NCBI RefSeq assembly: GCF_014705615.1
Contig: NZ_JACXJA010000016.1
Location: forward strand, 124,001 to 188,000
Direction of reading: 5' to 3'
DNA length: 64,000 nucleotides
Source of the DNA: Paenibacillus oceani
GTDB taxonomy: Bacteria > Bacillota > Bacilli > Paenibacillales > NBRC-103111
Positions 8,039-59,928 of the stretch are shown here, piece by piece. Numbering within the stretch: the first letter of the stretch is position 1; each line of letters starts with the position of its first letter. The position numbers and the translations under genes are program-made. The notes beneath the pieces are model-generated. The model made no database searches, was not told the origin of the DNA, and saw only the letters and a program-made list of their open reading frames with translations.

Positions 8039-8067
8039 CGGACGGCTGACATTGGATTCGGAATGAG

Positions 8068-8103
8068 GAAAAAAACACTTGCTTACCTGCAAGTGTTTTT
8101 TTA
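8068..8103 (+). terminator. Rho-independent terminator
   Basis: AAAAACACTTGC pairs with GCAAGTGTTTTT around a 6-base loop, followed by T residues. Confidence 0.93.
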
Positions 8104-8221
8104 TTGACGCCGGAAGTTCAAGTTCTTCACCTTACTAATGCGGGTAAAGAGATCCTCGTATTTGTCGAGTCAGCCAGTGTTATGAGTTGCATGTCATTGT
8201 TTATCATTGCTTATCATAGCC

Positions 8222-8326
8222 GTTCGGCTCTCTGTGCTGCTGCTAGCTGGGGGAGGGGGACCGAATAGGAGCAGTTTGCAGCCTTTATTTGGATGTTCAA
8301 GATTGAAGCTGCTAGAGACTCTTATC
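8222..8326 (+). repeat. interspersed repeat copy A (short form)
   Basis: This is a short version of the family also found at 20471, 35016, 51054 and 60082. It keeps the left block (GAATAGGAGCAGTTTGCAGC then CTTTATT) and the right end (AGAGACTCTTAT) but lacks the central ~110 bases. Bases upstream (GTCGAGTCAGCCAGTGT, from 8167) also match the flank of copy E. Confidence 0.7.
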
Positions 8327-8479
8327 TGGTTAGGCAGTCTGTAGGCGCGTCGTCTCCGGTTTTCCGAAGCGGTATTTGTTCTGGCCGGGTTCCGTCTTAT
8401 GGTATAATGGGCTGGATAGGCTTGGGAAAACTGCCGGTATACGGCCATGACGAACGGACAGACAGAAAGGGAATCGGCA

Positions 8480-9241
8480 ATGAGTATTAGTCAAATGGAA
8501 CAGGTAAAGACGATCCGCAACAAAATTACGCGGTTTATGATGATGTACAAGTTCGCCCTAAGCGAGCTTGAGACGAAAGTGGACATTCTGAAGGAAGAAT
8601 TCCATCTGCTGCACGATTACAATCCGATCGAGCACACAAAGTCGCGGATCAAAACGCCGGTCAGCATTATGAACAAGCTTCACCGCAAAGGCTGCGGCAC
8701 TTCGTTTTCCAGCATCAGGGAAAATATCAAGGATATTGCGGGGCTGCGGATTACGTGCTCCTTCATCTCGGATATTTATTGGATCAGCGAGATGCTCAGC
8801 AACCAGAGCGACTTGAACATCGTAGAAATCAAGGATTATATCATGAATCCGAAGCCCAACGGCTATCGCAGCCTCCACCTGCTGATGCAGGTACCGGTTT
8901 TTATGTCGGACCGCCAGGAGAACGTGTTTGTCGAGGTGCAGATCCGGACGATCGCAATGGACTTTTGGGCGAGCCTGGAGCACAAAATTTTTTACAAATA
9001 CGATCAATCCGTCCCCGCCCGTCTGCTGCAGGAGCTGAAAGAAGCGGCTGACTCGTCCAATGAGCTCGATCTGCGGATGGAACGGCTGCACCGGGAGATC
9101 GAAGCGATTAAGGGAGAACAGCATCACGACGACGCCGAGGAGCTGGCCCGGTTTATGATCGACAATAAGCATTTCTCGATCCCGGCCGCTTTGATGGAAC
9201 TGCTCAGCGAAGATATAAAGCTTGGAAAATCCGGGGTATAA
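8480..9241 (+). CDS. small alarmone synthetase (RelA/SpoT synthetase-domain GTP pyrophosphokinase)
   Basis: This is a 253-residue single-domain protein that makes (p)ppGpp from ATP and GDP/GTP. It has the synthetase core only, with no HD hydrolase, TGS or ACT domain. Visible motifs are KTPVSIMNKLHRKG, IKDIAGLRITCSF, the G-loop region NPKPNGYRSLH, FVEVQIRTIAMDFWASLEHK and IFYKYD. It is ~40 residues longer than B. subtilis YjbM/YwaC, with a coiled C-terminal tail. ATG 8480 with AGAAAGGGA is preferred over the ATG 33 bases upstream. It is the first gene of a probable four-gene run to 11387. Confidence 0.9.
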   Translation: MSISQMEQVKTIRNKITRFMMMYKFALSELETKVDILKEEFHLLHDYNPIEHTKSRIKTPVSIMNKLHRKGCGTSFSSIRENIKDIAGLRITCSFISDIYWISEMLSNQSDLNIVEIKDYIMNPKPNGYRSLHLLMQVPVFMSDRQENVFVEVQIRTIAMDFWASLEHKIFYKYDQSVPARLLQELKEAADSSNELDLRMERLHREIEAIKGEQHHDDAEELARFMIDNKHFSIPAALMELLSEDIKLGKSGV

Positions 9242-30817: not shown

Positions 30818-32152
30818 TTACTTGCTTGCTTTTTCCTGCGCGATCCATTGATTCGATTCCTCTTCAATTTGCCGGAAAGCGGTATTTAAGTCGATTGTTC
30901 CTTGCGCGAGCTGCTCCAACGGCTTGAGGTATAGATCCTGCACACGCAAATCGTACACTGTCATCGGAGGGGAGTTCGTAAATTTGTTTTTGAGAATCGC
31001 CGAATAGTTCTTATTCGGGTAAGGCGCTTTGGTGCCGTAGGCTTGGATGACGGCCGGCGTTTGCAGGATCGGAATGATGGCGCGTTCGGATAACGATTTT
31101 TGCACTTCTTCCGACAGCATGTAGGAGAGCACTTCCATAGCTTGATCCGGATGCTTGCTAAGTGAGGTTATGGCGAACATCGTAGGCAGCGCCTGCTGTC
31201 CGACTCCGGGAACTTCTTTATATAGAGGATAAGAAGCGATGTCCCAATTCATTGCGGATACGTCAAAGTTCAGAAACATATTGGCTAGTCCGAGAAACAT
31301 GGCCATATTGCCTTTCAAAAATTGATTCGGATCGGACATTTTCTTATTATCGGTAGTTTGATAGGCGGCAACCAAATGCTCGTACAGCGTCTTCCAGCGG
31401 GGATCGGTTTGGATCGTCGGCTTGTCCGTTTTGGCATCGACGTACGGAATCGAGAACGGACTTAGGGCAAGGGCGTAGGAAGGATACGTTCCGAGTCCGT
31501 AATATTTGATCCCGCCGTCGGTCCGGTTAAACCGCTTGGCCAGATCCAGCAGCTCGTCCCGTGTCATGCCGTCTTTCGGGAACGCCACTCCGAACTTATC
31601 GAATACATCTTTGTTGTAATAAAGTACCTCGGTGTTGCTCACCAGCGGGAGAGCGGAGATGCCGCCGCCAGACATCGATTTGGCGATATGGAGGGAGGAC
31701 GGGTCCAGTTGGGCCAGGTTGACATTATGTTTCTGGATCAGCCCGCTCATATCGGACTGGATCTTGAAACGGTCCAAATTGTTGAAGGTGGCCGTATGAG
31801 TATCCCAATACACGTCGATCGCGGTTTTGGATGTGATCAGACTTTCCATCGTAACTTCTTTGCTTGCTTGAATATACTTGATCGTATATTCCGGGAATTT
31901 GGCTCTCATCGTTTGGCCGAATCGTTCGTTGAACGCTTCCTCCGACCAGCCCGAGGTGGAGAAAAAAACAAGCTCCACCGGTTCCCGCATCGCTGACGGT
32001 ACCGGCTGTTGCGAAGTCTCTTGCCCGGTGAAGCCGCATGCAGCCAGTATCGACATAGTCCCTGCATCGAGCAGAAACCGGTAAGGGGTTAGCGCTTTCC
32101 TAGAAATAGGTTTAATCAGCCTCTTGACGGTATGGACACTCGAAAAAAACAA
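30818..32152 (-). CDS. extracellular solute-binding lipoprotein (SBP family 1)
   Basis: This is a 444-residue sugar-type SBP. TTG 32152 is the start, with GAGGAGGG eight bases upstream; the longer ATG form is unlikely. The signal is long and somewhat atypical, with lipobox LAAC (Cys 39). Shared family motifs are EVLYYNKDVFDKFGVAFPKDGM and a C-terminal IDLNTAFRQI. It is divergent from an AraC regulator, which is the likely controller. No permease genes are nearby. Confidence 0.88.
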   Translation of the reverse strand: MFFSSVHTVKRLIKPISRKALTPYRFLLDAGTMSILAACGFTGQETSQQPVPSAMREPVELVFFSTSGWSEEAFNERFGQTMRAKFPEYTIKYIQASKEVTMESLITSKTAIDVYWDTHTATFNNLDRFKIQSDMSGLIQKHNVNLAQLDPSSLHIAKSMSGGGISALPLVSNTEVLYYNKDVFDKFGVAFPKDGMTRDELLDLAKRFNRTDGGIKYYGLGTYPSYALALSPFSIPYVDAKTDKPTIQTDPRWKTLYEHLVAAYQTTDNKKMSDPNQFLKGNMAMFLGLANMFLNFDVSAMNWDIASYPLYKEVPGVGQQALPTMFAITSLSKHPDQAMEVLSYMLSEEVQKSLSERAIIPILQTPAVIQAYGTKAPYPNKNYSAILKNKFTNSPPMTVYDLRVQDLYLKPLEQLAQGTIDLNTAFRQIEEESNQWIAQEKASK

Positions 32153-32318
32153 CTTGTAACCCTCCTCAACGTCATTGGATAACCTAATTACGCTTTCATG
32201 ATACATGCCGCCTGCGCGAAAAAACATGCAAGAATTTGAGATTTAATTTTCATTTTTTTGTGTCCGAAAGTTTGTTATTCTGAAAAAGGACGATCTGGCA
32301 AACAGGGGAGAATCGCGC

Positions 32319-37291: not shown

Positions 37292-37354
37292 AGTATGGAT
37301 AGATAGGACGGATTACGTTGCAAGTCCGGAAAAATTAAAAATGGGGTGTTCCAT

Positions 37355-38689
37355 ATGCGGAAATCAAGAGTGATTTCATCCATCGGACTTTTATCCCTCA
37401 CGTTAATTGTAAGCGCTTGCGGAAAGGCGGCCGGTCCAGCGGAGCCGGCTCCCGGTCAAACGCCGGACACTTCGCCGCCTCCGGCAACGGTTAATAACCA
37501 GCCGGTTACCGTGAAAATCGCCGTCCACGCCGGGATCGTCAACGACAACGATTTGAAACGGTATTTTATCGAACCGGTAAAAGCGAAATATCCGCATATC
37601 ACAATCGAGAGAATCAATGTGGCCGACAAAGGGCTGAGCTTGCCCGAGCTGGTCTCGACGAATGCCGTTCCCGACATGGTGATCAATTATCCGTACAACT
37701 TGACGGATCTGACGCAGCTCGGCATCAGCTACAACATGGATGAATTGATCAAAACCCATAAGCTGGACTTGAACCGGATCAGCCCGGAATATTTGGAATC
37801 GATCAAAATCGTGAATGGTTCGAATTTTTATACGGGGTTGCCGATGAACAACAATACGTTCGCGTTGTTTTTCAATAAAGATTTGTTCGACCGGTTCGGC
37901 GTATCGTATCCGAAGGACGGCATGACCTGGGATGAAGTACGTGAAATCGCGGTCAAATTGACCCGCAGCGAAAACGGAGTCCAGTATTACGGCCTGTTCC
38001 CGGATAACGTGTACCGGGGGGCATATCAGGCAAGCGTGCCGTTCGTCGATCTGCAAAACAATAAATCGGTATTCCAGACCGATGCATGGAAAAACTTGTT
38101 CGAGCTGTGGTATAGTCTCTACAAATTTCCCGGAGCCGTAATCATGCCGAAAGAAATGAATACCGTCAACGGCTTCAAGACCGGACAAATCGCGATGTTC
38201 TCCGGGTATTCGGGCCAATTGCCGGATCTGTTGTCGATGAAGGATCTCAACTGGGATGTGGTCACCTATCCGACCAATAAAGTCGCGCCTGGGGTCGGCC
38301 AGCGGGTAGATTCTCCGATGATGTCGATTACGAGCACAAGCAAGGTCAAAGATGCGGCGATGCAAATCATATCCGTCATTTTGTCGGATGAAGTGCAAAC
38401 CGAGATGACGCGCAACCTGCAGTCGTCCGTCTTGAAAGATCCGAAAATTAACGCCCAGTTCGGTAAGGCGACTCCGGAGCTTGCCTCCAAAAACGTCGTT
38501 GCGTTTACGAAGCTGAAAGTAGCGGTGCTGAAACCGTTCGGGTTCGTGCCGGTCGGCAGCGCAGCCGGCATCCCGATCACCGCGTTCACCGAGCTGCTCT
38601 ACGCAGGGAAAGACGTGAATACGGTTCTTCGCGAAGCGGACGAGAAAATGGAAAAGGTGATCGCGGAAGAATTGCAGAAGAAAAAATAG
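37355..38689 (+). CDS. extracellular solute-binding lipoprotein (SBP family 1)
   Basis: This is a 444-residue sugar-type SBP with ATG 37355 behind a GGGGTG purine run; a GTG three codons upstream is less likely. Lipobox is VSAC (Cys 22), followed by a Pro/Ala linker. Shared motifs are FALFFNKDLFDRFGVSYPKDGMTWDE and a C-terminal DVNTVLREADEKMEK. It has no permease, ATPase or dedicated regulator next to it. One cre-like site lies upstream and a second lies inside the signal-peptide codons, so carbon catabolite repression is likely. Confidence 0.9.
   Translation: MRKSRVISSIGLLSLTLIVSACGKAAGPAEPAPGQTPDTSPPPATVNNQPVTVKIAVHAGIVNDNDLKRYFIEPVKAKYPHITIERINVADKGLSLPELVSTNAVPDMVINYPYNLTDLTQLGISYNMDELIKTHKLDLNRISPEYLESIKIVNGSNFYTGLPMNNNTFALFFNKDLFDRFGVSYPKDGMTWDEVREIAVKLTRSENGVQYYGLFPDNVYRGAYQASVPFVDLQNNKSVFQTDAWKNLFELWYSLYKFPGAVIMPKEMNTVNGFKTGQIAMFSGYSGQLPDLLSMKDLNWDVVTYPTNKVAPGVGQRVDSPMMSITSTSKVKDAAMQIISVILSDEVQTEMTRNLQSSVLKDPKINAQFGKATPELASKNVVAFTKLKVAVLKPFGFVPVGSAAGIPITAFTELLYAGKDVNTVLREADEKMEKVIAEELQKKK
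37408..37421. promoter_or_regulatory. intragenic cre-like site
   Basis: TGTAAGCGCTTGCG matches the cre consensus at 13 of 14 positions, within codons 18-23 of the SBP gene. CcpA bound here could act as a roadblock. Confidence 0.5.
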
Positions 38690-47269: not shown

Positions 47270-47517
47270 GCATTCGAAGCTGACGGGTTTCTCTGCCGGA
47301 TTTATCGGCCTGCGACCGGAACGGGACGTTTTCCGTCCTTTCTAAGTATAATGAAAATGTTGACATTTCGTTTTTAGGCAACTAAGCTTAATTGAAAATT
47401 AATACGATTTTTTTGGGGAATTTTTTGGGGTTATCCGTAATACATGATAGAATTTCCTTCCTACTATTAGTTCATCTTATATATTTATATAGTAAAGAAT
47501 TTTTGAGGGGTGCCGAA

Positions 47518-49389
47518 GTGGAATTTATCCAATTAATTTGTCCAAATTGTAACGGGAAAATTGAAAATAAAAAAGGGCAAACGTTCAAATGTCCTTTTTG
47601 TGAGACGGAACTATTATTAAAAGAGAATAAAGTCTATTATGTGGACCAAACGATTCATAATTATTACGGGACGCCTCCTGCATCCGCTCCTGTGACAACA
47701 AACCCGGCGAAACGTGCAAAAACGGCAGGTCTTGTGTCGCTCGTGCTCCTTTGTGCCATGGTTGGATATTTCTTTTTGATCGGCAATCCAGTTAAAGACA
47801 GCGGTACTGTCAAATCGCCGCCTGTACGAACGATGCCGGAAAGCGAAGTGCTCCTGTTCTTTTTAAAAGATATTTTCAACAAAGGCACAGCGATGCCGAC
47901 GGAAGAAGAAATTGAGCGAATCCGTTATTTGTCCGCAGACCATTCTGAAGATCAGTGGCATTTCGTTTACAGCTTCGACGATCCGTTTACGAATAAGCAA
48001 GCTGAAAAAATCAACTATGTGATTTCAGACAAAATATTGAATACTCAAAAAATCGAACAAAAAGACTTTGAGGCGTTTAGCGGACTAACGGCGTTAAATC
48101 TGATGGGGGAATACGAGATCTCCAAAAATCAGGACGTCAGTTTTCGGCATATGGAACAATTAAAAAGCTATGAAGGCGGCTTTAACGAATCGTTCCAGGT
48201 GTTCGCCCAATATTTTGCCGATAAAGCCAAGGTCGTAGAACTCTCCGTACAAATCCGGAACAACGCTGAACTGGCCTTACTGCTGGAGTTTCCGAATTTG
48301 CAGTCGCTTGACATTTCCTATGTCGATAAGTCTGTTACGGACTTCCATCTGCTGAATCAGCTGAAGCTAAAGTCATTATCATTTCGTACGATCAACGATA
48401 TAAAATGGTTGTCTTCCTTAACCGGCTTGGAGTCCTTAGGCATCTATTATAGTGATGCAACCGACTTTAGTTCTTTGTATTCACTGAGTCAATTACAAGA
48501 GTTGAGGTTTGAGGCAGTAAAAAATTTAAAAACGATTGATTTTGTACAAAACATGCCTAACCTGCAAGTGCTGGAGATCGATCGGGCCGATCTTGCGAGC
48601 TTAGAACGGCTAAGAAATAAGTTATCCTTGACGAAGCTGCGAGTAGCGTACCTCTCTCCATTAGGTTCTGTTGAATTTGTGAACAGTTTAACTTCTCTGA
48701 CGGAATTGTCGATAACGGGTTATCATGGAGCGGTCTCCTCATTCACACTGCCTAATTTAAAGAAAGCCGAAGTATCCGGTTCGATCTTGAAAAAGCTGAC
48801 GGCGCCTGCCTTGCAATCTTTAAAGGTTAACATTGGCAGCGTAGATCTACATGGGGCAGATGTCGTGAAATACCCGCAGCTGGAGCAGCTTTCACTGATT
48901 GATGGAAGTTTTGAAGATATCCGTTCCCTGGATCGTCTGCCCAGTCTGCAATCCTTATATGTAGAAGATATGAGTTTTTATGATGAAACGAGTGCGTTAT
49001 TCCAATTGCAGCATATCAAAACGTTGACCTGTAAGGATTGCAGTTTCCAGCTCCGCAGCCAAGATCCGTTCTCAAATGATACGCTCGAACATTTAATTTT
49101 GACCAAGACGTGGTTTCAAATAGGCAACGAACGAGTGAGTGAAATGGATAAGGTGATGCCTTATTTTGCAAATGTGACAGCCTTACGTTCATTTTCCATG
49201 CAGGACAGCTCGCTGCAATCGCTGGATTTCATGAACAAGTGGCAGCATATGGAGGTGCTTCATTTGGAAAATAACGCGATTTCCAATGTGGAGCCTCTGG
49301 TGAAACTTCCAAATCTGAAAAAGTTGTATATGGAAGGCAATCCGGTACAAAACAAGTCTGTTCTGGATAAGAGAATTTTAGTTTATTGA
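47518..49389 (+). CDS. zinc-ribbon, membrane-anchored leucine-rich-repeat protein
   Basis: This 623-residue protein starts at GTG 47518 with GAGGGG upstream. An N-terminal zinc ribbon (CPNC...CPFC, residues ~9-33) is followed by one membrane helix (TAGLVSLVLLCAMVGYFFLI) and a large domain of leucine-rich repeats (for example LTGLESLGIYYSDATDFSSL and MEVLHLENNAISNVEPLVKL). The layout suggests a cytoplasmic zinc ribbon and an outside LRR domain. The gene is clearly more AT-rich than its neighbours, including AT-rich upstream DNA, which points to horizontal acquisition. Function unknown. Confidence 0.82.
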   Translation: MEFIQLICPNCNGKIENKKGQTFKCPFCETELLLKENKVYYVDQTIHNYYGTPPASAPVTTNPAKRAKTAGLVSLVLLCAMVGYFFLIGNPVKDSGTVKSPPVRTMPESEVLLFFLKDIFNKGTAMPTEEEIERIRYLSADHSEDQWHFVYSFDDPFTNKQAEKINYVISDKILNTQKIEQKDFEAFSGLTALNLMGEYEISKNQDVSFRHMEQLKSYEGGFNESFQVFAQYFADKAKVVELSVQIRNNAELALLLEFPNLQSLDISYVDKSVTDFHLLNQLKLKSLSFRTINDIKWLSSLTGLESLGIYYSDATDFSSLYSLSQLQELRFEAVKNLKTIDFVQNMPNLQVLEIDRADLASLERLRNKLSLTKLRVAYLSPLGSVEFVNSLTSLTELSITGYHGAVSSFTLPNLKKAEVSGSILKKLTAPALQSLKVNIGSVDLHGADVVKYPQLEQLSLIDGSFEDIRSLDRLPSLQSLYVEDMSFYDETSALFQLQHIKTLTCKDCSFQLRSQDPFSNDTLEHLILTKTWFQIGNERVSEMDKVMPYFANVTALRSFSMQDSSLQSLDFMNKWQHMEVLHLENNAISNVEPLVKLPNLKKLYMEGNPVQNKSVLDKRILVY

Positions 49390-49636
49390 TAAAAAAGGTC
49401 GGTTGTCCAGCTCCCTATAGGATAGACAGGTAACACGGTCTGTCGCATAGGGAGTTTTATTTGCTGCGGAAACGATTGTATCAAATCCCTCACGGAAGCC
49501 GCACAGGGGAACAGCGTCTCCATGCCCGGTCCATATTCCGTAGATAGTAGGCAGGACTTGAAAAGGACGGTGCGAATTGATAAGATTTTGGTGACGTCCA
49601 AAATCCAATTCAATCAGGCAGGGAGCAGGAATAGCG

Positions 49637-51016
49637 ATGAATTCAAAGCCGAGCCGACGCACTTTCAGAGACCGTATGAACGAAATGATCGCCACGCTGC
49701 GCCGCGATATCGAGTCGGGCGTTTATGCGCCCGGCTCTTTTTTGCCTTCGGAAGAACGACTTGCCGAGCAGTTCGAAGTGAGCTACAAATCGGTGGCCAA
49801 AGCACTTGATCAGCTGGCGGCCGAAGGGTTGCTGGTCAAAATACGCCGGGTGGGCAGCAAGGTCGTCAAAAAGGAGACGGTTCATTTCGGGTTTCACGAT
49901 ACGATGTACCGGGACGTCGACCTGGCCTCGCTGCTTGCCTTGTTTCACCAGGAGCATCCGCATATCGAGATCCGTCCGGTCGCCATCTCGCAAAACTATG
50001 CTTCGGATACGATCGACGATCTGATGACATCCGGCCGGTTCGACGTCATGATGACCAATCATATTTACTACCAGCACGCCCGGGAGCGCAATCGGCTGAA
50101 CGTGCTGGAGCCGGTGTGCCTTGCGGACGACACGTATCCGTTTCTTCGCGAGGAGCTGCTTGTCGACGGCGTCAGCTACGCTTTGCCGCTTGTATTTTCA
50201 CCGGTCATCCTCGCCTATAATCCGGAGCATTTCCGGGAGGCGGGGCTCCCGGAGCCGGACAGCGGATGGACGTGGGAACGGATGCTGGAGGCTGCCGCGC
50301 AGTTGACGAAGCCAGAAGGAAGATATGGATTTGCCGCCAGCTTCCTGGCCGGCAACAACCGCTGGCCGGCGATCTGGATGCAGCTTGCCTCCGATCCGCT
50401 GCATTCATCCGGCTGGCGGCTGGAGGCGGAGGAACTTGCCGCGGCCCTGACGTACAGCTGCGGCTTGATGAAAGCAGACGGAGTCGTTCCGAGTTTTCTC
50501 GACGTTTCGACGATGCAGTCCCTGTTCGCCGAAGGCAAGCTGTCGATGCTGATGACGACTTACTTTTTGCTGAACGGCTTGGGCGACAAGATTCCGTACG
50601 ATATAGCGCCATTGCCTTACGTAACGAAACCGCGGACCATGCTGCTGTGGATCGGACTGGCCATTTACCGCAAGACGGCGGTGCCGGAGGCGGCCCGCAC
50701 GTTCGTTGAGTTTATGTCGTCTCCCGAGGCGCAAGCGGTCATCCGCCGCAATACGCTCAGCATCCCGGGCTCCGCCGTCGCGGCCGGCGCGTCGGAGCCG
50801 AAGGTGCACAAGCCGGAACGGTACAATTTGTACCGGGAAATTATTCCGACCTACCGGAGCCATCGGCAATACGGGCTGAGCCACGAGACGATCGAAGCGG
50901 TGCGCGAGCTGCTGCCGCTGCTGTACTCCGGCTTGATCGGAGCTGCGGAGCTGCGCGTCCGGCTGGCGGAGCTGCTGGATCAGCAGGAGGCCGGGCGGAT
51001 CGCTTCCGGCGGTTAA
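49637..51016 (+). CDS. GntR-type DNA-binding domain fused to a solute-binding-protein domain
   Basis: This 459-residue protein has no signal peptide. Residues 1-75 are a GntR winged helix (RDIESGVYAPGSFLPSEERL, EQFEVSYKSVAKALDQLAAE). Residues ~80-455 are a family-1 sugar-binding SBP fold (SLLALFHQEHPHIEIRPVAI, VILAYNPEHFREAGLPEPDS, PEAARTFVEFMSSPEAQAVI). It should be a cytoplasmic one-component sensor in which an SBP-like domain reads a (poly)sugar ligand, by analogy with LacI proteins. It lies upstream of the 2-hydroxyacid dehydrogenase, SBP and heparinase-like genes and probably regulates them. Confidence 0.88.
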   Translation: MNSKPSRRTFRDRMNEMIATLRRDIESGVYAPGSFLPSEERLAEQFEVSYKSVAKALDQLAAEGLLVKIRRVGSKVVKKETVHFGFHDTMYRDVDLASLLALFHQEHPHIEIRPVAISQNYASDTIDDLMTSGRFDVMMTNHIYYQHARERNRLNVLEPVCLADDTYPFLREELLVDGVSYALPLVFSPVILAYNPEHFREAGLPEPDSGWTWERMLEAAAQLTKPEGRYGFAASFLAGNNRWPAIWMQLASDPLHSSGWRLEAEELAAALTYSCGLMKADGVVPSFLDVSTMQSLFAEGKLSMLMTTYFLLNGLGDKIPYDIAPLPYVTKPRTMLLWIGLAIYRKTAVPEAARTFVEFMSSPEAQAVIRRNTLSIPGSAVAAGASEPKVHKPERYNLYREIIPTYRSHRQYGLSHETIEAVRELLPLLYSGLIGAAELRVRLAELLDQQEAGRIASGG

Positions 51017-51053
51017 GGCACTTCGGCACGGTGCGGCTGCCAGTCCAATAACA

Positions 51054-51272
51054 AAAGGGTACATCCCCCGCCAGTTGGTTGGAATAAGAGCGGTTTGAAG
51101 CTTTTATTTTGTGCGAACCCGTGTGGATGGAGGAATTAAGAGCGGTTTGGGCTGTTAAAATCGGCAAAAAGGGTGCAACCCCCACCAGTTGGTTGGAATA
51201 AGAGGTACAAACCACCTTTATTTCGTTTGTTTTATGGATAATGAGGAAAATAAAGGGTTAAAAGACACTTAT
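51054..51272 (+). repeat. interspersed repeat copy D (full form with partial internal duplication)
   Basis: It contains GGAATAAGAGCGGTTTGAAG, AATTAAGAGCGGTTTGGGC, the central inverted AATAAGAGGTACAAACCACC and the right end AATAAAGGG...GACACTTATC. Its first 35 bases (AAAAGGGTACATCCCCCGCC then AGTTGGTTGGAATAAG) duplicate the internal segment before the central module. Confidence 0.85.
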
Positions 51273-51624
51273 CTTGCTCAAAGTCCGCGTGCGTGACGAA
51301 TGTTGGCTATCTGCACGAACACGGCGTATCTACATGGGACGAATGGGCTGATGAGAACGGCGATTTGGGGCCGGTGTGCGGCAAGCAGCGGCGCGAATCG
51401 GGAGGACCAAGCTGCTCGCAAAAATGAGGTGACCGGTTTCGCTTATTGGAGTCGGGTTGCCCCCGTAACACCTCATCAACGAGCGGCTGGAGCCAAAATA
51501 CCCGTTCCCTCCACGCACAAACGTAGGGGGTTGCTCGCCAAAGGACCGTCCGATGGTTTACAGATCCCAGAAAAAGTCATGGTTTTTTCAGGGAGTGCGA
51601 ATTATTAAGTTTGATCTTCAACGA
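51273..51624 (+). other. non-coding block after repeat D, related to the block after repeat E
   Basis: Segments CCCGTTCCCTCCACGCAC (from 51502) and GGACCGTCCG (from 51544) have counterparts in the same order after copy E. No gene was recognised. Confidence 0.45.
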
Positions 51625-51668
51625 GAGACCGTTTAATGCCAGTTCACAGGCTAAAAACGGTCTTTTTG
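51625..51668 (+). terminator. Rho-independent terminator with no coding gene before it
   Basis: AGACCGTTT pairs with AAACGGTCT and is followed by TTTT. It may end an RNA that begins within or before repeat D. Confidence 0.75.
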
Positions 51669-51799
51669 CATCTTAGAAAAAAGCCAAGAGGGCTGTTCTG
51701 TTCAGTGGCCGCGAGCTTTTTGGACGGTTTTTTGGCGTGCATTTGTGCAGCCGGACGCGCAATTGAAATCAAAAAAAGCGACGAATGAAAATCCGATGG

Positions 51800-51851
51800 T
51801 TGACATTGCTGCGGGAAGGATTATAATTTGTTATGTAGATAGTATGTAGAT
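51800..51851 (+). promoter_or_regulatory. SigA promoter with direct-repeat operator before the dehydrogenase gene
   Basis: TTGACA (51800-51805) lies 16 bases from TATAAT (51822-51827). Just downstream TATGTAGAT occurs twice (51832-51840, 51843-51851), one helical turn apart. An imperfect inverted copy lies near 51896-51907. Confidence 0.75.
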
Positions 51852-51931
51852 GTTTATTTTTGAATTATTGTAGCTTGTTAATGTATTCTGCGTATCTTCT
51901 ACATATCTAAAAAGAATGGAGGACGAGAAGC

Positions 51932-52918
51932 TTGGCATGGACGATCGCTCTCTGCTATCCGCCCAACTTGCAACGACCGATTATGCACGAACGGCACCTG
52001 GAACGTCTGGCGGGCCTGGGGAGGGTGATTCACACGGAATGGACGGACCCGGAGCAAGCACGCCGTTCGCTGTATGAGGCCGATGCGGCCATCACCTCGT
52101 GGGGGACGCCGGCGCTGGACGAGGAGTGGCTTCGCCACTGTCCCCGGCTGAAGGTGGTCGCGCATGCAGCCGGCACGGTCAAAGGGCTTGTATCCTCCGC
52201 GCTGTGGGAACGGGGCATCCGCGTATCGAGCGCCAACGGACCACTGGGGGAGGGGGTTGCCGAGACAACGCTAGGCATGACGATCGCCTCGCTGAAAAAT
52301 ATGTGGCGCATCGACCGGGCAACGCGTTCCGGCGGATGGAAGGAAGAAAGAAAAGGGGCGAGAGAACTGTATCAGATTACGGTCGGCGTGATCGGAGCGG
52401 GCAAGGCGGGCATGCACTATATGAAGCTGCTGCGCCCTTTTCAGATCAAGGTGCTGGCTTACGATCCGTTCGTCAACCAGCAGCAGCTGGCAGAGCTGGG
52501 AGCGACCCGGACGGACCTGGACGAATTGATCCGCCAATCCGATGTCATTTCGATTCACGCGCCGCTGCTGCCTTCGACCCGCAATATGATCGATCGGAGC
52601 CGGCTTATGGCGATGAAGGACGACGCCATTGTGATCAATACGGCCAGGGCGCCGATCATCGACGAGGAGGCGCTGGTCGAGCAGCTGTCGCTCGGACGGC
52701 TGTTCGCCTGTCTGGACGTCACCTCGTCGGAGCCGCTGGCGGCCGATCATCCGCTGCGCTCGCTGCCGAATTGCGCGTTGACGTGCCATATTGCAGGAGC
52801 GGTATCCAACGGCGGCTATCGGCTCGGACAATTTGCAGTCGAAGAGCTTGAACGTTTTAAGCGGGGGATCAGGATGGAAGGCGAAGTGGAGCGCGAGCAG
52901 ATGGAGATTTTGGCGTAG
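51932..52918 (+). CDS. D-isomer-specific 2-hydroxyacid dehydrogenase
   Basis: This 328-residue NAD-dependent enzyme starts at TTG 51932 with GGAGG upstream. The NAD-binding motif is VGVIGAGKAGMHYMK. The catalytic Arg is in NTARAPIIDEEAL, Glu in LDVTSSEPLAADHPL and His in CHIAGAVSNGGY. The family reduces 2-keto acids or oxidises phosphoglycerate. Within this locus it may handle a uronic-acid-type catabolite, by inference. It is followed 60 bases on by an SBP gene with a cre-like site between them. Confidence 0.92.
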   Translation: MAWTIALCYPPNLQRPIMHERHLERLAGLGRVIHTEWTDPEQARRSLYEADAAITSWGTPALDEEWLRHCPRLKVVAHAAGTVKGLVSSALWERGIRVSSANGPLGEGVAETTLGMTIASLKNMWRIDRATRSGGWKEERKGARELYQITVGVIGAGKAGMHYMKLLRPFQIKVLAYDPFVNQQQLAELGATRTDLDELIRQSDVISIHAPLLPSTRNMIDRSRLMAMKDDAIVINTARAPIIDEEALVEQLSLGRLFACLDVTSSEPLAADHPLRSLPNCALTCHIAGAVSNGGYRLGQFAVEELERFKRGIRMEGEVEREQMEILA

Positions 52919-52955: not shown

Positions 52956-52978
52956 AAAATAAGGAGGCAATGTGGACC

Positions 52979-54310
52979 ATGAACCGAACTGTGAAAACGG
53001 CATGGCTGCCAGTGATGCTGGCGAGCGCGCTTGCCCTGACCGCATGCGGCAGCGACGGAACGGAGCGGCGGCAGGCCCAAGAGGACAATGGCGCGGCCGT
53101 ACCGAGTGGGCCTAAGCCGGTCGATCTGTTTATTTATACCGATGTGACTGACGAAGTGTTCCAGGCGACTTGGGGCGAGCGCATCCGCCGGCAATTCCCC
53201 CATGTGACTATCAAACATCAGCAGGGGGTAAAAGGCGCGCGGATCGAAGATCTGGTGGCGGCGGGCACGATCCCGGATGTGATGCGGACGCAGACGACAA
53301 CGATTCGCGACGAATATTTGAACCTGGGGCTTTCCTACGATATGCGCGAGTTGGTGCAGAAACACAAGCTGGACCTTAACCGGTTCAATCCCGTTTATTT
53401 GCAGCGCATCATCAATGAAACCGGTGCGTCCGGAGGCGAAATCTACGGCTTGCCGATCAATTCCCCCAGTCCGCTCGTCCTGTTTTACAACAAAGACCTG
53501 TTCGGCAAGTTCGGCGTTCCGTATCCGAAGGACGGTATGTCATGGGACGATTTGGTTCCGCTGGTCCAGCAGCTGTCACGCTCGGAAGGCGGCATCTTGT
53601 ATCGCGGGCTGACGACCAATTATATGTCGGTGCTGCGGGACAATGCGTGGTCCCACCCGATTTTGAACCCGAATGCCGACGAGATGGCCGATACGGCCAA
53701 ATGGCAAATTTTGTTCAACAATCTGAAGCGTTTTTACGAGATTCCCAACAATCCGATGGCGGCCTCGCTTACGGCCGAGCTCCAGCTGTTTTACAAAGAA
53801 CGGACGGCTGCGATGTATGTCGGGCAAATTAACCAGTTCAACTCGTTCCCGGCCGATCTGAGCTGGGATATGGTCAGCTTGCCGCAGTTGAAGGAAGCGC
53901 CGAACAGGCTGTCCCAGCTGACGCCTCCGTACTGGTCAATTACCCGTCAAAGCAAGGTGAAGGACGAAGCGTTCGCCGTCATACTGGATTTGCTGTCCGA
54001 GGACGTGCAGCTCGCACAAGCCAAGGAAGGCAAAATTCCGACTCTTGCGGACAAAAAGCTGGAGCAGGCGTTCGGTCAGGAGACGCCGGCGCTGAAGGGT
54101 AAAAATACAAAAGCGGTCTTTTATCATCCGTTCGCCGACCCGACGCCGCTCAGGAAAGCCGAACTGCCGGTTGTGCCGCTTGGCAAGCAGCAAACGATTG
54201 TCAGCAACGCTTTCGAGAAGGTAGTGAAGCAGGGGACCGACGTCAATACGGCGCTGCGGGAGGCGCAGGATCAGCTTAAAAAAGAGCTGGATACCGCAAA
54301 AGCCAAGTAG
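52979..54310 (+). CDS. extracellular solute-binding lipoprotein (SBP family 1)
   Basis: This is a 443-residue sugar-type SBP. AAGGAGG at 52961-52967 lies only two bases before ATG 52970, so ATG 52979 is used. Lipobox is LTAC (Cys 23). Shared motifs are PLVLFYNKDLFGKFGVPYPK and DGMSWDDLV, with C-terminal DVNTALREAQDQLKK. It lies between a dehydrogenase and a heparinase-like gene and presumably captures oligosaccharides released by that enzyme. No permease genes are in the window. Confidence 0.9.
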   Translation: MNRTVKTAWLPVMLASALALTACGSDGTERRQAQEDNGAAVPSGPKPVDLFIYTDVTDEVFQATWGERIRRQFPHVTIKHQQGVKGARIEDLVAAGTIPDVMRTQTTTIRDEYLNLGLSYDMRELVQKHKLDLNRFNPVYLQRIINETGASGGEIYGLPINSPSPLVLFYNKDLFGKFGVPYPKDGMSWDDLVPLVQQLSRSEGGILYRGLTTNYMSVLRDNAWSHPILNPNADEMADTAKWQILFNNLKRFYEIPNNPMAASLTAELQLFYKERTAAMYVGQINQFNSFPADLSWDMVSLPQLKEAPNRLSQLTPPYWSITRQSKVKDEAFAVILDLLSEDVQLAQAKEGKIPTLADKKLEQAFGQETPALKGKNTKAVFYHPFADPTPLRKAELPVVPLGKQQTIVSNAFEKVVKQGTDVNTALREAQDQLKKELDTAKAK

Positions 54311-54471: not shown

Positions 54472-57400
54472 ATGCAGGGAAAATGGAAGCAAGGTCTCAC
54501 CCGGGTGCAGGCGGGCGTATTGATCGTGGCGCTGGCATCGCCAGGCTGGACGGCAGCGGGCGGCTCGCCGGTGACGGAGCCGTATGAAGGGGAGAGCGCC
54601 GCTGTAGTAGTTGCGCCGGAGGTTGCCGTGCATACGGATCGATGGCTGACAGCGCAGCCCACTTCAGTCCCCGTCCAGACGGACGGCGTGTGGAGCGAAA
54701 GCGTGTGGGAAGAAGTTTACGGAACGGGCGGTTTTTCCACCGCCTTTTTCAATGAACAGGCGGAACAGCAGACGATCATGAAGCTGGCTTATGACGATAC
54801 GCATCTGTATATTGCCTTGGACGGCCAATATGAAAGCGGATACAGTGCGGCGAATGCGCCGGAGGCGGAGCGGGTTTTCGTGCTGCTGAGCCGCGACGAC
54901 GACATGATGAAATTTTACAGCGTCCCTGTCACGATTACGCCGGGACCGCATCCGATCCGGATTCGGTACAACAATTTCACCGCCGCCGATGTGCGGGAAA
55001 CGCTGCAAGTGACGGTGGACTTGACGCAAGCCGGGCAGTCGCAGCAGGCGGTGAGCAAACGAAGCGACGGCTGGAGCGCCGAAGTCAGCATCCCGCTGTC
55101 CGCGCTCGGAGTCGATGAGATCGAACCCGGTGAGCGCTGGCATGTGAATGCGATCCGTTATTTTGGGATCGCTTCCCAACGTCCGCTCAGCTCCTGGGCG
55201 CCGGTGCGGAGGGCGACGGTGATCGACGGCGACGGTTCCGGCCCGAACCGCGGATATACGCTGAGCGTATACACGGCCAATGAAGGACGATTCGGCAGCC
55301 TGTATTTCGGAGGAAGAGCGAATGCGCCCGTCAGCGGCAAGCCGGTTGTCGCGTGGCCGCTGACGACCCCGGCACGATTGCTGTACGACAGCTTTACGGA
55401 GAAGCAGCTAATCCTGCAGGAGAGTGATTGGAATGCGGTTGAGTCGTCGGTGGACATGCGCTGGACTTCACCGCACGGTGAACAGACTTCGATCGTTCCG
55501 GTGTCCAGTGTAAGCGAGGGAAACGAGCGGGTCCTCTCGTTCACCCATCCGGAGCCGCTGCAAAACGGGACGTACCGGCTGCAGGTGACCGCAGAGGAAA
55601 ACGGAGGGCTTCAGGCCAGACAGCTGGAGCTGGCCTTTGACCGGGACGGACTGATCGCGGCCGGCGATAAGCGGTTTCCGGTTCAACCGTTGGCGGCGGT
55701 GACTCATTTGACGCCTGCGGCCCCATCGCCGGAAGTCGCTTTGCTGCTGACACTTGTGCCGGAGAAGGTGGGGATGTTTTTCGCGGGGGTGCCGCATGCC
55801 CCGGAGCTGTCGGAGCGGGCGACCAATTACACTTGGTCGGTTGCCGATCCGTGGGCATTGACCTCGACGGACAGCGGGAAGTTGAAGTATCCGAATGCGC
55901 AGTATCCGGAAAACAAGCAGCTGACGGTGACCAATCGTCTGGGTCAGACGGTGGACTACCCGTACTACGAGGATGCGAACGGAACACGGTACTTTCTGTC
56001 CGCCCATCTGTGGTATTTGCAGCGGCAGTACTTGTTGACGCGGACGCGGGAGCTGGCGTTAACCGATCCGCTCGGTGCGGCGCGTCTGATACATCGGTTC
56101 GCCGAGGTGTTCCCGGGCTGGGTGCCGATGAACGATTACGACAAAGGCGTGCAGTATCCGGTCGAGCCGGCGGGCGGTCCGCCTTACCCGTACTATGGCG
56201 GCTTGTGGTCCCGCTGGTCGCAGTCCGAACTGAACGCGCTCGGGCAGTTGGCGGATGCTTATGCGATCGTTAAACGGACAAACGCCTTCGATCTGCTGAG
56301 CGCCGAATTGGGCGAAGACGCGGACGCGCGCATCGTCGAGGACATGTTCCGGCCGACGCTGGATTACTTTCATTCGTTTCCGGTCATTAAGCACAACAAC
56401 GAGGTGCTGAACTACATCGGCCTGATCGCGCTGGCCAAAGCGCTGAACGATCCCGCCTTGATGCACGAGGCGGTGGAGCTGGTGGAGCGGTACGCAGCCA
56501 ATGTGTATATGCTGGACGGCTTCTGGAAGGAAGTGTCGGTGACGTACCACAAAGATTCGGCGCTGCTGCTCAGCCGGGCGGCCGAGCAGGCGGCGGGGTG
56601 GAGCGATCCGCCGGGGTACGTGTCGCCGCGGACGGGCACGCGGCTGGAACAGCTGGATTTGCTGCAGCGGATGCCGCAGCTGCCGGCGATGCTCGGGCTC
56701 GCTGCGAAGCTGACGTACCCGGACGGACGGGTGCTGCCGATCAACGATACCTGGGCGTTCTATAAACCGCCGCAGCCGCAGGATACCGGCTCGCTGGTGC
56801 TGCCCGGCGGCGGGATTGCCAAGCTGGCGCGCGGCCAGGGGGCCGGACAGACGATGCTGTATATGGGCTTTTCGCCGAACAACGGCCACGATCACAAAGA
56901 TCCGCTCAATTTGACGCTGTATGCGAACGGTCAGGAGCTGCTGCCGGACATCGGTTATACGCATACGAAGTATAGGCAGTGGAGCGCATCGACGCTGGCG
57001 CACAACACAGTGGTGGTGGACGGCCGCGATGCGTCGATCTCGGGGAATGCCAAGCCGGGCGGCCTCATCCGCGAGATGGTCAAGCTGGGCGATGCGGCCG
57101 AGGTGGTGCGGGCGGAGCAATCGAACGCATACCCGCAGACGGAGACGTATGGACGGGAGCCTTGGCTGATCGGGTTCCACGGAGGGGGAGCGAACGAGGC
57201 GTATGTGCTGGACTTGTTTCGCGTGACCGGCGGAGCGAGGCACGAGTATACGCTGAACGGCGATGCGAACCGGACGGCATATTTCGAAACGGAGGCGGCG
57301 CTGCAGGAGTACGGCCCGTATTTGCTGGACGGAAATCCGGCCGTGGTGGAGCCGGTGAACGAATACGATACCGGCACGATCAGCGACGGTCAGTACCACG

Positions 57401-59928
57401 GGTACATGCATGTGCGTAACGTGCGGTCGGCCGCGCTGGAGGACGGACGGTTCGAAGCGACGCTGCGGACGATGGAAGGCGCGGGAGCGCGTTCGAATCT
57501 GCGAATCAGCGGGTTTGCCGGAACGGGGGCGAGTCAACTGTTCATAGGTGAATCGCCGTCGCTGCAGGCCACCCGGCTGAAAGGCTTGAACTATGACACG
57601 CAGACGGAGGCGGTCAAGCATTTCATGCCGAAGCTGGTCGTGCGCCGGGAAGGAACAGCGCTGAAAAGCAACTTCATTACGGTGCTGGAGCCGTTCGCGT
57701 CCGGGCAGCAGCCGCGGATCGAACACATCGAAGTGCTGCACAGCGACGAGCAGACCGGAGCGGCGGCGGTGGCGATCACCTACGGCAACATGCGGGATAT
57801 TGTGCTAAGCGCGCCGCAGTATGCGGGTGTGCCGCTGGTCGTCGGCGATTTGCGGCTGGACGGCAAGCTTGGCTTTATCCGGCTGGTGGACGGCCAGATC
57901 GAGCAGATGCGTCTGGCGGACGGCACGCGGCTGAGCAAGGGAGCGGTCGTAATCACGGCAGGCGGCGCGGTTCAAGGTACGATTGTGCGAACGGAGCGGG
58001 AGCGGGACGGCGACGGGCATAACGCGCTGGTGACGGAGGCGGCGGTGCCGCAGTCCGCGGCAGGCCGTTACGTGATCGTCACGCATCCGGATGGATCGGC
58101 AGCCGGCTACCGGATCGAAAGCGTTCAGCCGGGGGCAGGCGAGACGGCGCTTGTGCTGGGAGAGCAGGAGCCGGGCTTCACGATCGGGCCGGACGGCCGC
58201 TCCGGACAGTTGTATTTTCCGATGAAGCAGTGGACCGGTGCGCATACGCTGCATCTTGCAAATCTGGAGGCAAGCGGGTTTGCCGCTCTTCCGCAACTTA
58301 TGGCGGGAACGGTAAGCGGAACGGTATACGGTCCCGGGCTTGAACCGCTGGATGGCGCAAATGTGAATGTGAGCGGATTTGGCGGTTTCTCAGCCGTAAC
58401 CGGACCGGACGGCGCCTTCGTGCTGCCACAGGTTCCGGGCGGCTGGCAGCGGGTAACGGCTAAGAAAGACGGCTATCGTACGACAGTGTCGGATGCCGTC
58501 TATGTAGAAGCGGGTCAGACGGTAAGCGTTCCGCTGAAGCTGGATGACAACTCGCCTCCGATGTTGACCGGCGCGCCTGCGGTAGGCGCGGGAATCGGGG
58601 AGTCGATACAGGCGGCGTCGTCCCGCGACGGCTGGCTGTACCTGGTACCGGAATCGGTTCCTCCGGTGCCGTCGCAGCTGGAAACGGCTGTCGTCAGCGC
58701 AGCGGTGTACGCTGCCCGCGCCGAGGCCGCGGCTCATATTCCAGCTTTGCTCGATACGTCCGGTTTCGCTGCCGGGAGGTATTTGTTGTACGCAGTAGAC
58801 GGCCGCGGACGTGTGTCCGCAGGATCGCTCGTATGGCTGTTGTCTACCGTCCAAGAGATCGTGGACAATGAAGATTCGCTCGTCGGGTATTCCGGGACGT
58901 GGACGACGACGCGCAACGACGACCGGCATATCGGCAGCAGCGCTGTAACGGCGACCTCGGACGGAGCCTACGCCGAGATTCCCTTTTATGGCGCAAGGGC
59001 GCAACTGCTCGGCGTTCGTTTCCATACGCACGGCAAAGCTGCGATTTATGTCGATGGCGAATACCGGACAACGGTAGACAACTACCGTGCAAGCTGGAAA
59101 GCGCAGGAGGTCCTATTCGATACGGGAGAGCTGCCGGAAGGGGCGCACATCATCCGGTACGAGCGGCTCGGCGAGAAAAACGCAGCCTCCAGCAACTATT
59201 TGATCCACTTTGACGCGCTGCGTGTCATGACAGCGGCACAACTGCCGCCGGTTGCCGCCCGCGTCGGAGAAGGACCGGTTGCCGTTGGCTCGCCGGTAGC
59301 GGCCACGAGCTCCAAGAGCGCTACCCTTTATCTTGTCCCGCGAAGCACGAGCGCGATCCGCAGTGCGATCGAAGCGGCAGCGGCGGGAGCCGGCGGCTCA
59401 AGCGTGACGGTGACGGCTTCGGCATACGGGCTGCTGGACACGACCGGTTTTTCGCCGGGCTTGTACAGCGTATATGCGATCGATGCGAACGGCGTCCTAT
59501 CCGAACCGCTTCCGCCGATTCCCGTGATCGATCCCGGCGCAACGATTGTAGACAGCGCCGGCCCGGTTGTCTACTACAGCGGATCGTGGTATACGACAAA
59601 CAATGATAGCCGGCATATCGGCAATAGCGCGGTGACGGCGATGAACAATGGGGCTTATGCCGACATTCCGTTTTACGGGAAAAGGGCGCAGCTGCTCGGC
59701 GTTCGCTTCCATGCGCACGGCAAAGCCGCGATTTATATCGATGGCGAGTACCGGACAACGGTGGACAATTACCGCGCAGCCTGGAAGGCGCAGGAGATTA
59801 TTTTCGATACGGGAGCGCTGCCGGAAGGGCTGCACACGATCAGATACGAGCGAATCGGCGAGAAAAATCCCGCCGCCAGCGACTATTTGGTTCACTTCGA
59901 CGCGCTTCGGGTGACCAACGAGCCGTAG
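54472..59928 (+). CDS. giant secreted heparinase II/III-like polysaccharide lyase with carbohydrate-binding modules
   Basis: This 1818-residue protein has a signal peptide ending near ALASPGWTAAGG. Residues ~60-270 look like a family-9-type carbohydrate-binding domain. Residues ~450-780 are an alpha/alpha toroid, and ~790-1230 a heparinase II/III-like beta domain with NNGHDHKDPLNLTLYANGQE and LAHNTVVVDGRD. Residues ~1275-1360 are a carboxypeptidase regulatory-like fold. The C-terminus is two tandem copies of an Ig-like linker plus a ~125-residue galactose-binding-like module (IPFYGARAQLLGVRFH, AAIYVDGEYRTTVDNYRA). GGAGGAG precedes the ATG. It probably cleaves an acidic polysaccharide outside the cell. 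Substrate unknown. Confidence 0.82.
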   Translation: MQGKWKQGLTRVQAGVLIVALASPGWTAAGGSPVTEPYEGESAAVVVAPEVAVHTDRWLTAQPTSVPVQTDGVWSESVWEEVYGTGGFSTAFFNEQAEQQTIMKLAYDDTHLYIALDGQYESGYSAANAPEAERVFVLLSRDDDMMKFYSVPVTITPGPHPIRIRYNNFTAADVRETLQVTVDLTQAGQSQQAVSKRSDGWSAEVSIPLSALGVDEIEPGERWHVNAIRYFGIASQRPLSSWAPVRRATVIDGDGSGPNRGYTLSVYTANEGRFGSLYFGGRANAPVSGKPVVAWPLTTPARLLYDSFTEKQLILQESDWNAVESSVDMRWTSPHGEQTSIVPVSSVSEGNERVLSFTHPEPLQNGTYRLQVTAEENGGLQARQLELAFDRDGLIAAGDKRFPVQPLAAVTHLTPAAPSPEVALLLTLVPEKVGMFFAGVPHAPELSERATNYTWSVADPWALTSTDSGKLKYPNAQYPENKQLTVTNRLGQTVDYPYYEDANGTRYFLSAHLWYLQRQYLLTRTRELALTDPLGAARLIHRFAEVFPGWVPMNDYDKGVQYPVEPAGGPPYPYYGGLWSRWSQSELNALGQLADAYAIVKRTNAFDLLSAELGEDADARIVEDMFRPTLDYFHSFPVIKHNNEVLNYIGLIALAKALNDPALMHEAVELVERYAANVYMLDGFWKEVSVTYHKDSALLLSRAAEQAAGWSDPPGYVSPRTGTRLEQLDLLQRMPQLPAMLGLAAKLTYPDGRVLPINDTWAFYKPPQPQDTGSLVLPGGGIAKLARGQGAGQTMLYMGFSPNNGHDHKDPLNLTLYANGQELLPDIGYTHTKYRQWSASTLAHNTVVVDGRDASISGNAKPGGLIREMVKLGDAAEVVRAEQSNAYPQTETYGREPWLIGFHGGGANEAYVLDLFRVTGGARHEYTLNGDANRTAYFETEAALQEYGPYLLDGNPAVVEPVNEYDTGTISDGQYHGYMHVRNVRSAALEDGRFEATLRTMEGAGARSNLRISGFAGTGASQLFIGESPSLQATRLKGLNYDTQTEAVKHFMPKLVVRREGTALKSNFITVLEPFASGQQPRIEHIEVLHSDEQTGAAAVAITYGNMRDIVLSAPQYAGVPLVVGDLRLDGKLGFIRLVDGQIEQMRLADGTRLSKGAVVITAGGAVQGTIVRTERERDGDGHNALVTEAAVPQSAAGRYVIVTHPDGSAAGYRIESVQPGAGETALVLGEQEPGFTIGPDGRSGQLYFPMKQWTGAHTLHLANLEASGFAALPQLMAGTVSGTVYGPGLEPLDGANVNVSGFGGFSAVTGPDGAFVLPQVPGGWQRVTAKKDGYRTTVSDAVYVEAGQTVSVPLKLDDNSPPMLTGAPAVGAGIGESIQAASSRDGWLYLVPESVPPVPSQLETAVVSAAVYAARAEAAAHIPALLDTSGFAAGRYLLYAVDGRGRVSAGSLVWLLSTVQEIVDNEDSLVGYSGTWTTTRNDDRHIGSSAVTATSDGAYAEIPFYGARAQLLGVRFHTHGKAAIYVDGEYRTTVDNYRASWKAQEVLFDTGELPEGAHIIRYERLGEKNAASSNYLIHFDALRVMTAAQLPPVAARVGEGPVAVGSPVAATSSKSATLYLVPRSTSAIRSAIEAAAAGAGGSSVTVTASAYGLLDTTGFSPGLYSVYAIDANGVLSEPLPPIPVIDPGATIVDSAGPVVYYSGSWYTTNNDSRHIGNSAVTAMNNGAYADIPFYGKRAQLLGVRFHAHGKAAIYIDGEYRTTVDNYRAAWKAQEIIFDTGALPEGLHTIRYERIGEKNPAASDYLVHFDALRVTNEP

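Follow-up and report, generated by a model that had tools for sequence, protein, structure and literature searches.

In AraR and the members of the LacI family a DNA-binding head is combined with a sugar sensor of the LacI type, which resembles periplasmic binding proteins. The fusion protein described here carries an SBP_bac_1 domain, the fold of family-1 solute-binding proteins (SBPs), in the place of such a LacI-type sensor. Within the GntR regulators the subfamilies FadR, HutC, MocR, YtrA, AraR and PlmA are distinguished, of which AraR is a minor one, and FarR, NagQ and NanR are cited as having operators with direct repeats (available part of PMC4494728). These subfamilies share the winged-helix family with the fusion, but it is other C-terminal domains that define them. 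The list of subfamilies in the available part of the same source has no solute-binding type, and the term "solute-binding" is absent from its main text.

Transcription factors that pair a solute-binding sensor with other DNA-binding heads are known. DsvR of V. cholerae consists, by predicted structure, of an HTH and an SBP_bac5 domain, and SgrR of E. coli displays negative autoregulation (available part of PMC13060122; for background on SgrR see also the available part of PMC4021124). Judged from these partial sources, both resemble the fusion in the union of an N-terminal HTH and a C-terminal solute-binding domain in one transcription factor. Their sensor, however, is of the SBP_bac_5 type whereas that of the fusion is SBP_bac_1, and the fusion, unlike these regulators, is found in 17-51 copies per genus genome. 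YbbB (Btr) of Bacillus, encoded 5' of feuA, is assigned to the AraC family of regulators and carries a putative substrate-binding domain like that of FeuA (available part of PMC3896406). It likewise joins a DNA-binding domain to a substrate-binding domain according to that part of the source, but with an AraC-type head and a FeuA-like domain rather than a GntR head and SBP_bac_1. The fusion would work like SgrR and Btr and belongs to neither.

By profile, the fusion's sensor matches CUT1-type sugar-binding proteins (AbnE, Lmo0181 and MBP), from which the fusion differs in its lack of a signal peptide or lipobox, in its DNA-binding head and in its separate group in the tree. The exoproteome of one Paenibacillus holds many SBPs, and GntR genes are among the regulators beside its carbohydrate enzymes (available part of PMC4867992). 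A GntR-SBP_bac_1 fusion was not found in the available part of this source, nor is the architecture the topic of PMC3302838 in its available part. The open-licence literature, which mostly excludes subscription papers, yielded no description of a GntR-SBP_bac_1 regulator, and this is weak evidence of absence. The domain pair itself is visible to anybody running Pfam; new here are the candidate operators of one of these fusions. This fusion is encoded in the window, as we call the whole analysed stretch of 64,000 nucleotides of Paenibacillus oceani, together with the following features.

49537..49555 (+): candidate operator O3 at the fusion's own promoter, 14/19 to O1
49558..49586 (+): candidate promoter of the fusion gene, TTGAAA-17-TAAGAT, with TG before the second hexamer, 9/12
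49637..51016 (+): GntR-SBP_bac_1 fusion regulator, 459 aa (open reading frame, Pfam, orthologues, dN/dS)
49688..49864 (+): GntR winged-helix DNA-binding domain, residues 18-76 (PF00392, E 1e-16)
49937..50737 (+): SBP_bac_1 sensor domain, Pfam-matched part, residues 101-367 (PF01547, E 4.5e-21)
51800..51827 (+): sigma-70 promoter TTGACA-16-TATAAT, 12/12, 5' of the dehydrogenase gene
51832..51850 (+): candidate operator O1, TATGTAGATAGTATGTAGA, a direct repeat (period 11 bp) that covers the expected transcription start
51887..51905 (-): candidate operator O2, an inverted copy of O1 (spacing and match in 3 species)
51932..52918 (+): D-isomer-specific 2-hydroxyacid dehydrogenase (PF02826, E 1.6e-52), beside 3/3 orthologues
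52970..54310 (+): SBP lipoprotein with no permease gene adjoining (PF13416/PF01547), beside 3/3 orthologues
54472..59928 (+): large heparinase II/III-like protein, probable lyase (PF07940, E 7.3e-14)

Architecture and integrity of the fusion protein

The fusion gene is one open frame without internal stops. All three Pfam matches of its product (GntR, SBP_bac_1 and SBP_bac_8, the latter at E 3.4e-16) pass the curated cut-offs, PF00392 with 60.8 bits against a cut-off of 27 and PF01547 with 76.6 bits against 26. The NCBIfam GntR models score far under their cut-offs and cover almost only the head. Behind the winged helix Pfam gives SBP families only, and a C-terminal domain of the FadR, HutC, MocR, YtrA, AraR or PlmA type is absent. 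At E 0.001 there were likewise no Pfam matches in the protein to an SgrR-type HTH or SBP_bac_5, to an AraC head or a FeuA-type domain, or to a LacI-type periplasmic-binding domain.

A search of the PDB with a profile built from 35 family members matched Lmo0181 (5f7v, columns 84-391, E 3.6e-41), AbnE (6rjy, columns 82-416, E 1.2e-34) and entries of MBP (E about 1e-17), and the matches to the sensor begin near profile column 82. The assignment of the fold rests on such sequence profiles because the AlphaFold2 model of the fusion protein is weak (pLDDT 57.4, pTM 0.45, 9-row alignment); queried with this weak model, Foldseek placed sugar-binding proteins on top, with query TM-scores of 0.34-0.46 among the 50 matches listed, a ranking that carries little weight for us. 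Within its first 60 residues the protein has a maximum 19-residue hydropathy of 0.27 and no cysteine, in contrast to the lipoprotein-type start of the neighbouring SBP. Across the family, none of 37 genes exceeds a hydropathy of 1.6 in the first 70 residues. An earlier note, made from the letters of the window, had read the protein as a GntR winged helix joined to a family-1 SBP without signal peptide, and the Pfam search that it proposed for GntR and SBP_bac_1/8 recovered both domains; the cut-offs passed, the low hydropathy and the missing N-terminal cysteine agree with its reading.

Over residues 1-458/459 the fusion is 83-84% identical to its orthologues from Paenibacillus ginsengarvi (L051) and from P. 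hemerocallicola (L052). This end-to-end similarity rules out a frameshift or sequencing error joining two genes, against which the note had cautioned. Purifying selection acts across the whole fusion gene and is strongest at the junction of the domains: dN/dS against the orthologues is 0.16-0.18 overall, 0.07-0.13 in the GntR part and 0.18-0.19 in the sensor residues, compared with 0.035-0.05 at residues 70-100 (31 codons), which form the junction. Taken with the domain scores above cut-off and the missing export signal, the selection across the junction upholds the view of a cytoplasmic regulator with an SBP-type domain as its predicted sensor. To a frameshift or assembly artefact that fused two genes we assign a vanishingly small probability. 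Nothing in the window's own gene speaks for it, and its sole footing is a paralogue (L040) that is itself split over 2 frames; two orthologues, 37 genes of the same genome, fusions in other genera and a copy on a plasmid contradict an artefact, which is already refuted.

A family of fusions and the origin of their sensor

The fusion is a family member and not a single oddity. Its architecture is found in 37 genes of the genome holding the window, and the 34 others that were aligned are 23-39% identical to the window's fusion. Both GntR and SBP_bac_1 were matched (Pfam, E 0.001) by all 35 own-genome members scanned, as well as by 7/7 scanned fusions of a set of 19 that come from a plasmid or from other genera. 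L024 and the split L040 were omitted from set A3, and L040 was omitted from the tree. At one locus (L031:1238-2608 and 7166-8620) two fusion regulators lie on the same strand about 5 kb apart, with an SBP gene and 2 others between them.

Five genus genomes carry 37, 32, 44, 51 and 17 profile matches at E 1e-70, and 3 of 15 other relatives searched carry 13, 2 and 2 at the same threshold, with at most 83 candidates scored per genome. At least one profile match at E 1e-70 occurs in 66 of 104 genomes of the taxonomic family; among 296 genomes sampled from the order there are 94 with such a match, the window's genome counted. The matches listed in the survey of the order start at profile position 6 or before, and hence cover the head; its weakest matches, down to E 7e-78, lie outside the listed ones. 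In a sample of 398 genomes of the phylum five genomes had a match at E 1e-50, namely the one holding the window, two others of the order and two from outside the order. The matches in the last two (L071, L072) were rejected as fusions, being plain exported SBPs without a GntR head. No relative of the fusion was found in the viral contigs searched.

A full-length copy with 33% identity is located on a plasmid of Mesobacillus foraminis (Bacillaceae; L075:3196-4614, NZ_CP033045.1). It belongs to a run of sugar-uptake genes: an SBP gene and two permease genes lie on one side of it, and the other side encodes an alcohol dehydrogenase, Gfo/Idh/MocA oxidoreductases, an N-acetylmannosamine-6-phosphate epimerase and a ROK protein. 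The annotation of this copy reads merely "extracellular solute-binding protein", and such regulators may therefore often be filed as transport proteins.

In a FastTree phylogeny the 54 fusion sensors and 52 plain SBPs are split by one branch with a support of 98, and the label (fusion sensor or plain SBP) changes once along the tree, against 35.7 times in shuffles. We regard this as good but not final evidence that the sensor was recruited a single time, because FastTree is prone to joining long branches (8 long rows and 2 long-branch joins were flagged, all among the plain SBPs) and because the plain SBPs in the tree were drawn mostly from loci around fusions. The suggestion in the earlier note that the sensor evolved apart from the family-1 SBPs requires correction, since the sensors match the Pfam model of the latter and form one group beside the plain SBPs sampled. 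Recruitment from the SBP that presently neighbours the fusion was also considered and is unsupported: the distances among sensors do not follow those among neighbouring SBPs (Mantel r 0.10, p 0.16 for 24 pairs; r 0.12, p 0.11 for the 23 that are left once divergent members are removed), nor is the neighbour the nearest, with a median of 10.5 other SBPs ranking closer to the sensor (24 pairs).

These results bear on the question whether the SBP domain is a sensor at all. It might serve dimerisation or stability only and bind no ligand, which we consider very unlikely. The weaker constraint on the sensor than on the GntR part, reflected in the dN/dS values above, would accord with such a role, as would the failure of the sensor distances to mirror those of the neighbouring SBPs. 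The long profile match to sugar-binding proteins, the maintenance of 54 members as one group and the overall purifying selection nonetheless argue for a domain that binds a ligand.

Gene neighbourhood

The earlier note had placed the fusion next to an SBP gene and a polysaccharide lyase gene. Both neighbours are present, but they do not adjoin the fusion gene directly, as the dehydrogenase gene (51932-52918) intervenes. The heparinase-like gene, from which the idea of an acidic oligosaccharide as a possible ligand derives, was found in the window and at the P. hemerocallicola locus, and the 17-kb P. ginsengarvi locus gave no tblastn match to it at E 1e-10; the dehydrogenase and the SBP are therefore the sole partners kept in all three species. 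Two upstream genes were tested as well, and neither of them turned up next to the orthologues. The gene just 5' of the fusion gene (47392-49389) encodes, as read from its sequence, a leucine-rich-repeat-like protein with a zinc-ribbon-like start, for which tblastn gave no match near either orthologue; LRR families match two of the scanned neighbour proteins.

An SBP gene is located at most 4 genes away in 27 of the 37 fusion loci and a permease motif in 2 of them (regular expression on our own gene calls, with the complete set of eight neighbours in 18 of the 37). In 18 loci from other genera the corresponding numbers are 8 and 4. Among the matches listed, PF00528 occurs within 6 kb of 3 of the 37 fusions compared with 39 of 120 plain SBPs, where the PF00528 list covers 150 of 193 candidates and the plain-SBP list 144 of 250; the scarcity of a permease gene at this distance further distinguishes the fusions from CUT1-type proteins. 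None of the matches listed for ABC permeases (PF00528) falls on the 205-kb contig holding the window (C8). The window has SBP genes at 3588-4931, 30818-32227, 37346-38689 and 52970-54310, and orphan SBPs look common in the genome.

Within 2 genes of a fusion there are 115 proteins of at least 200 aa, of which 105 were scanned together and five of the ten longest separately. SBP_bac_1 was matched by 19 of the 105, which also include 2-hydroxyacid dehydrogenases (6), Gfo/Idh/MocA proteins (6) and AraC proteins (5). Hepar_II_III_C was detected in 4 of these 5 large neighbours. Two further loci each encode a protein of some 1000 aa that has a hydrophobic segment at its N-terminus and an SBP at its C-terminus (L156:1946-4948, minus strand; L158:1015-4257, plus strand), and in which two repeated carbohydrate-binding-like regions can be read from the sequence.

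Candidate operators and the proposed regulation

Region 51800-51910, which the earlier note had singled out as regulatory, indeed holds a conserved promoter and repeated candidate operators. O1 is identical in three species amid diverged intergenic DNA, and O2 lies at 55 bp from O1 in all three, matching it at 14, 16 and 16 of 19 positions. O3 is located two bases 5' of the -35 element (49558) in the fusion gene's candidate promoter and matches O1 at 14/19 in each of the three species, with the GTAGATAGTA core exact in the window. Both hexamers of the fusion-gene promoter are likewise kept in the three species, to which this small conservation footprint extends. The own-genome loci, some of which overlap, total 638 kb and hold 7 matches to O1 of at least 14/19 (0.011 per kb), and 13/19 matches also occur beside O1, O2 and O3.

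The exact O1 19-mer is present once per genome in the three genus genomes with an orthologue and lacking in the two without; the former are the same three species as in the footprint and not independent of it. With up to 3 mismatches, 1 O1 site was found in the window against 0.00 expected in shuffles, an expectation that is no independent test of a motif chosen from the window's own sequence. Across the five genus genomes O1 sites with up to 3 mismatches (9) are no commoner than those of a backward control (14), so that only the exact sites speak for O1. The GTAGATAGTA core alone is weak, with 2 hits in the window and as many reached by 22 of 100 shuffles.

O1 and O2 could also pair into an RNA hairpin, but their pairing is no better than in shuffles (z 0.71), and region 49300-52100 gave no Rfam match at the gathering score. 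On these two grounds we rejected the reading of the leader as an RNA element; an RNA stem is further disfavoured because O2 varies while O1 does not.

We consider it likely that the fusion protein is a one-component regulator which responds to a ligand and controls the dehydrogenase/SBP cluster, probably as a repressor. Its GntR winged helices would bind operators built of TATGTAGA-type half-sites, namely O1 over the start of the strong promoter, the inverted O2 55 bp further on and the weaker O3 at the fusion's own promoter. The SBP domain, severed from export and transport, may close around a sugar or sugar acid that the cell has imported, and this closure would alter the binding to DNA. Repression would thereby be lifted by the ligand, which would place the dehydrogenase-SBP(-lyase) cluster and the fusion gene itself under its control. 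Ligand-relieved repression appears as the simplest mode given the position of O1 over the expected start and of O2 within the leader, and the constant spacing of 55 bp between O1 and O2 suggests contact between the bound molecules. From the sequence data we infer the binding to DNA, the class of the ligand, the sign of the regulation and a dimer or tetramer contact over 55 bp.

Alternatively, the protein might act as an activator that recruits polymerase in its ligand-bound form, in which case O3 would be the telling site. The position of O3 directly upstream of the fusion gene's -35, kept in 3 species, is what an activator would call for. The best site at the target promoter, however, overlaps the expected start, the second site lies in the leader, and a target promoter of perfect consensus should need no activator, so that we regard activation as unlikely and prefer repression.

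The operators of the window's fusion do not extend to its paralogues. Around the other 36 fusions nothing exceeds 14/19 to O1. A motif shared by the fusion's own and the neighbouring promoters ranks top in 3 of 37 loci, with 1 expected, and the window locus ranks fourth in this test via another motif. Repeats 5' of the 37 fusions reach z >2 in 12 of 37 cases, compared with 13 of 60 control regions (p 0.067), a difference short of significance. Footprinting took in 85 of the same-genus fusion genes, and conserved repeats were sought in the 300 bp upstream, in groups with orthologues and against single-letter shuffles. In 5 of 26 paralogue groups a conserved repeat 5' of the fusion was matched in strength by 0 of 60 shuffles, where about 0.4 such groups are expected; these five repeats differ from O1, and the other 21 groups, the window's included, fall short of this level. 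The idea of a separate operator for every paralogue is thus a lead rather than a result.

It is quite unlikely that the conserved repeats of the window serve another regulator and that the fusion protein acts elsewhere or otherwise. Such a reading could draw on the failure of local motif sharing as a family-wide rule. It is opposed by the restriction of exact O1 sites to the orthologue-bearing genus genomes and by the weaker copy of O1 at the fusion's own promoter, both of which favour the fusion protein as the regulator that binds them.

Polysaccharide utilisation loci of Bacteroides have dedicated regulators. We suggest only tentatively that the fusions constitute an unrecognised GntR subfamily of single origin that multiplied in this genus to 17-51 dedicated switches, which have their own operators and read, inside the cell, the products of polysaccharide-degradation clusters with permease-less lipoprotein SBPs. 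If this is true, the family would be a Gram-positive counterpart to the Bacteroides regulators. Few regulators with a sensor of the solute-binding type have been described; the placement of a family-1 SBP behind a GntR head adds a further sensor swap to them, and does so with dozens of paralogues in one genome. These paralogues provide a natural series of a transport fold turning into a switch and of diverging operator specificity, and the conserved candidate operators make ligand and regulon directly testable.

Two further repeats were observed near fusion genes. In the window, CCAGTTGGTTGGAATAAGAG is present in two exact copies (51071-51090 and 51185-51204), 114 bp apart in the gap 3' of the fusion gene. 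At locus L039, CTGTATCATAT occurs twice as a direct repeat with an 11-bp period about 150-160 bp 5' of the fusion, and 0 of 40 shuffles are as strong.
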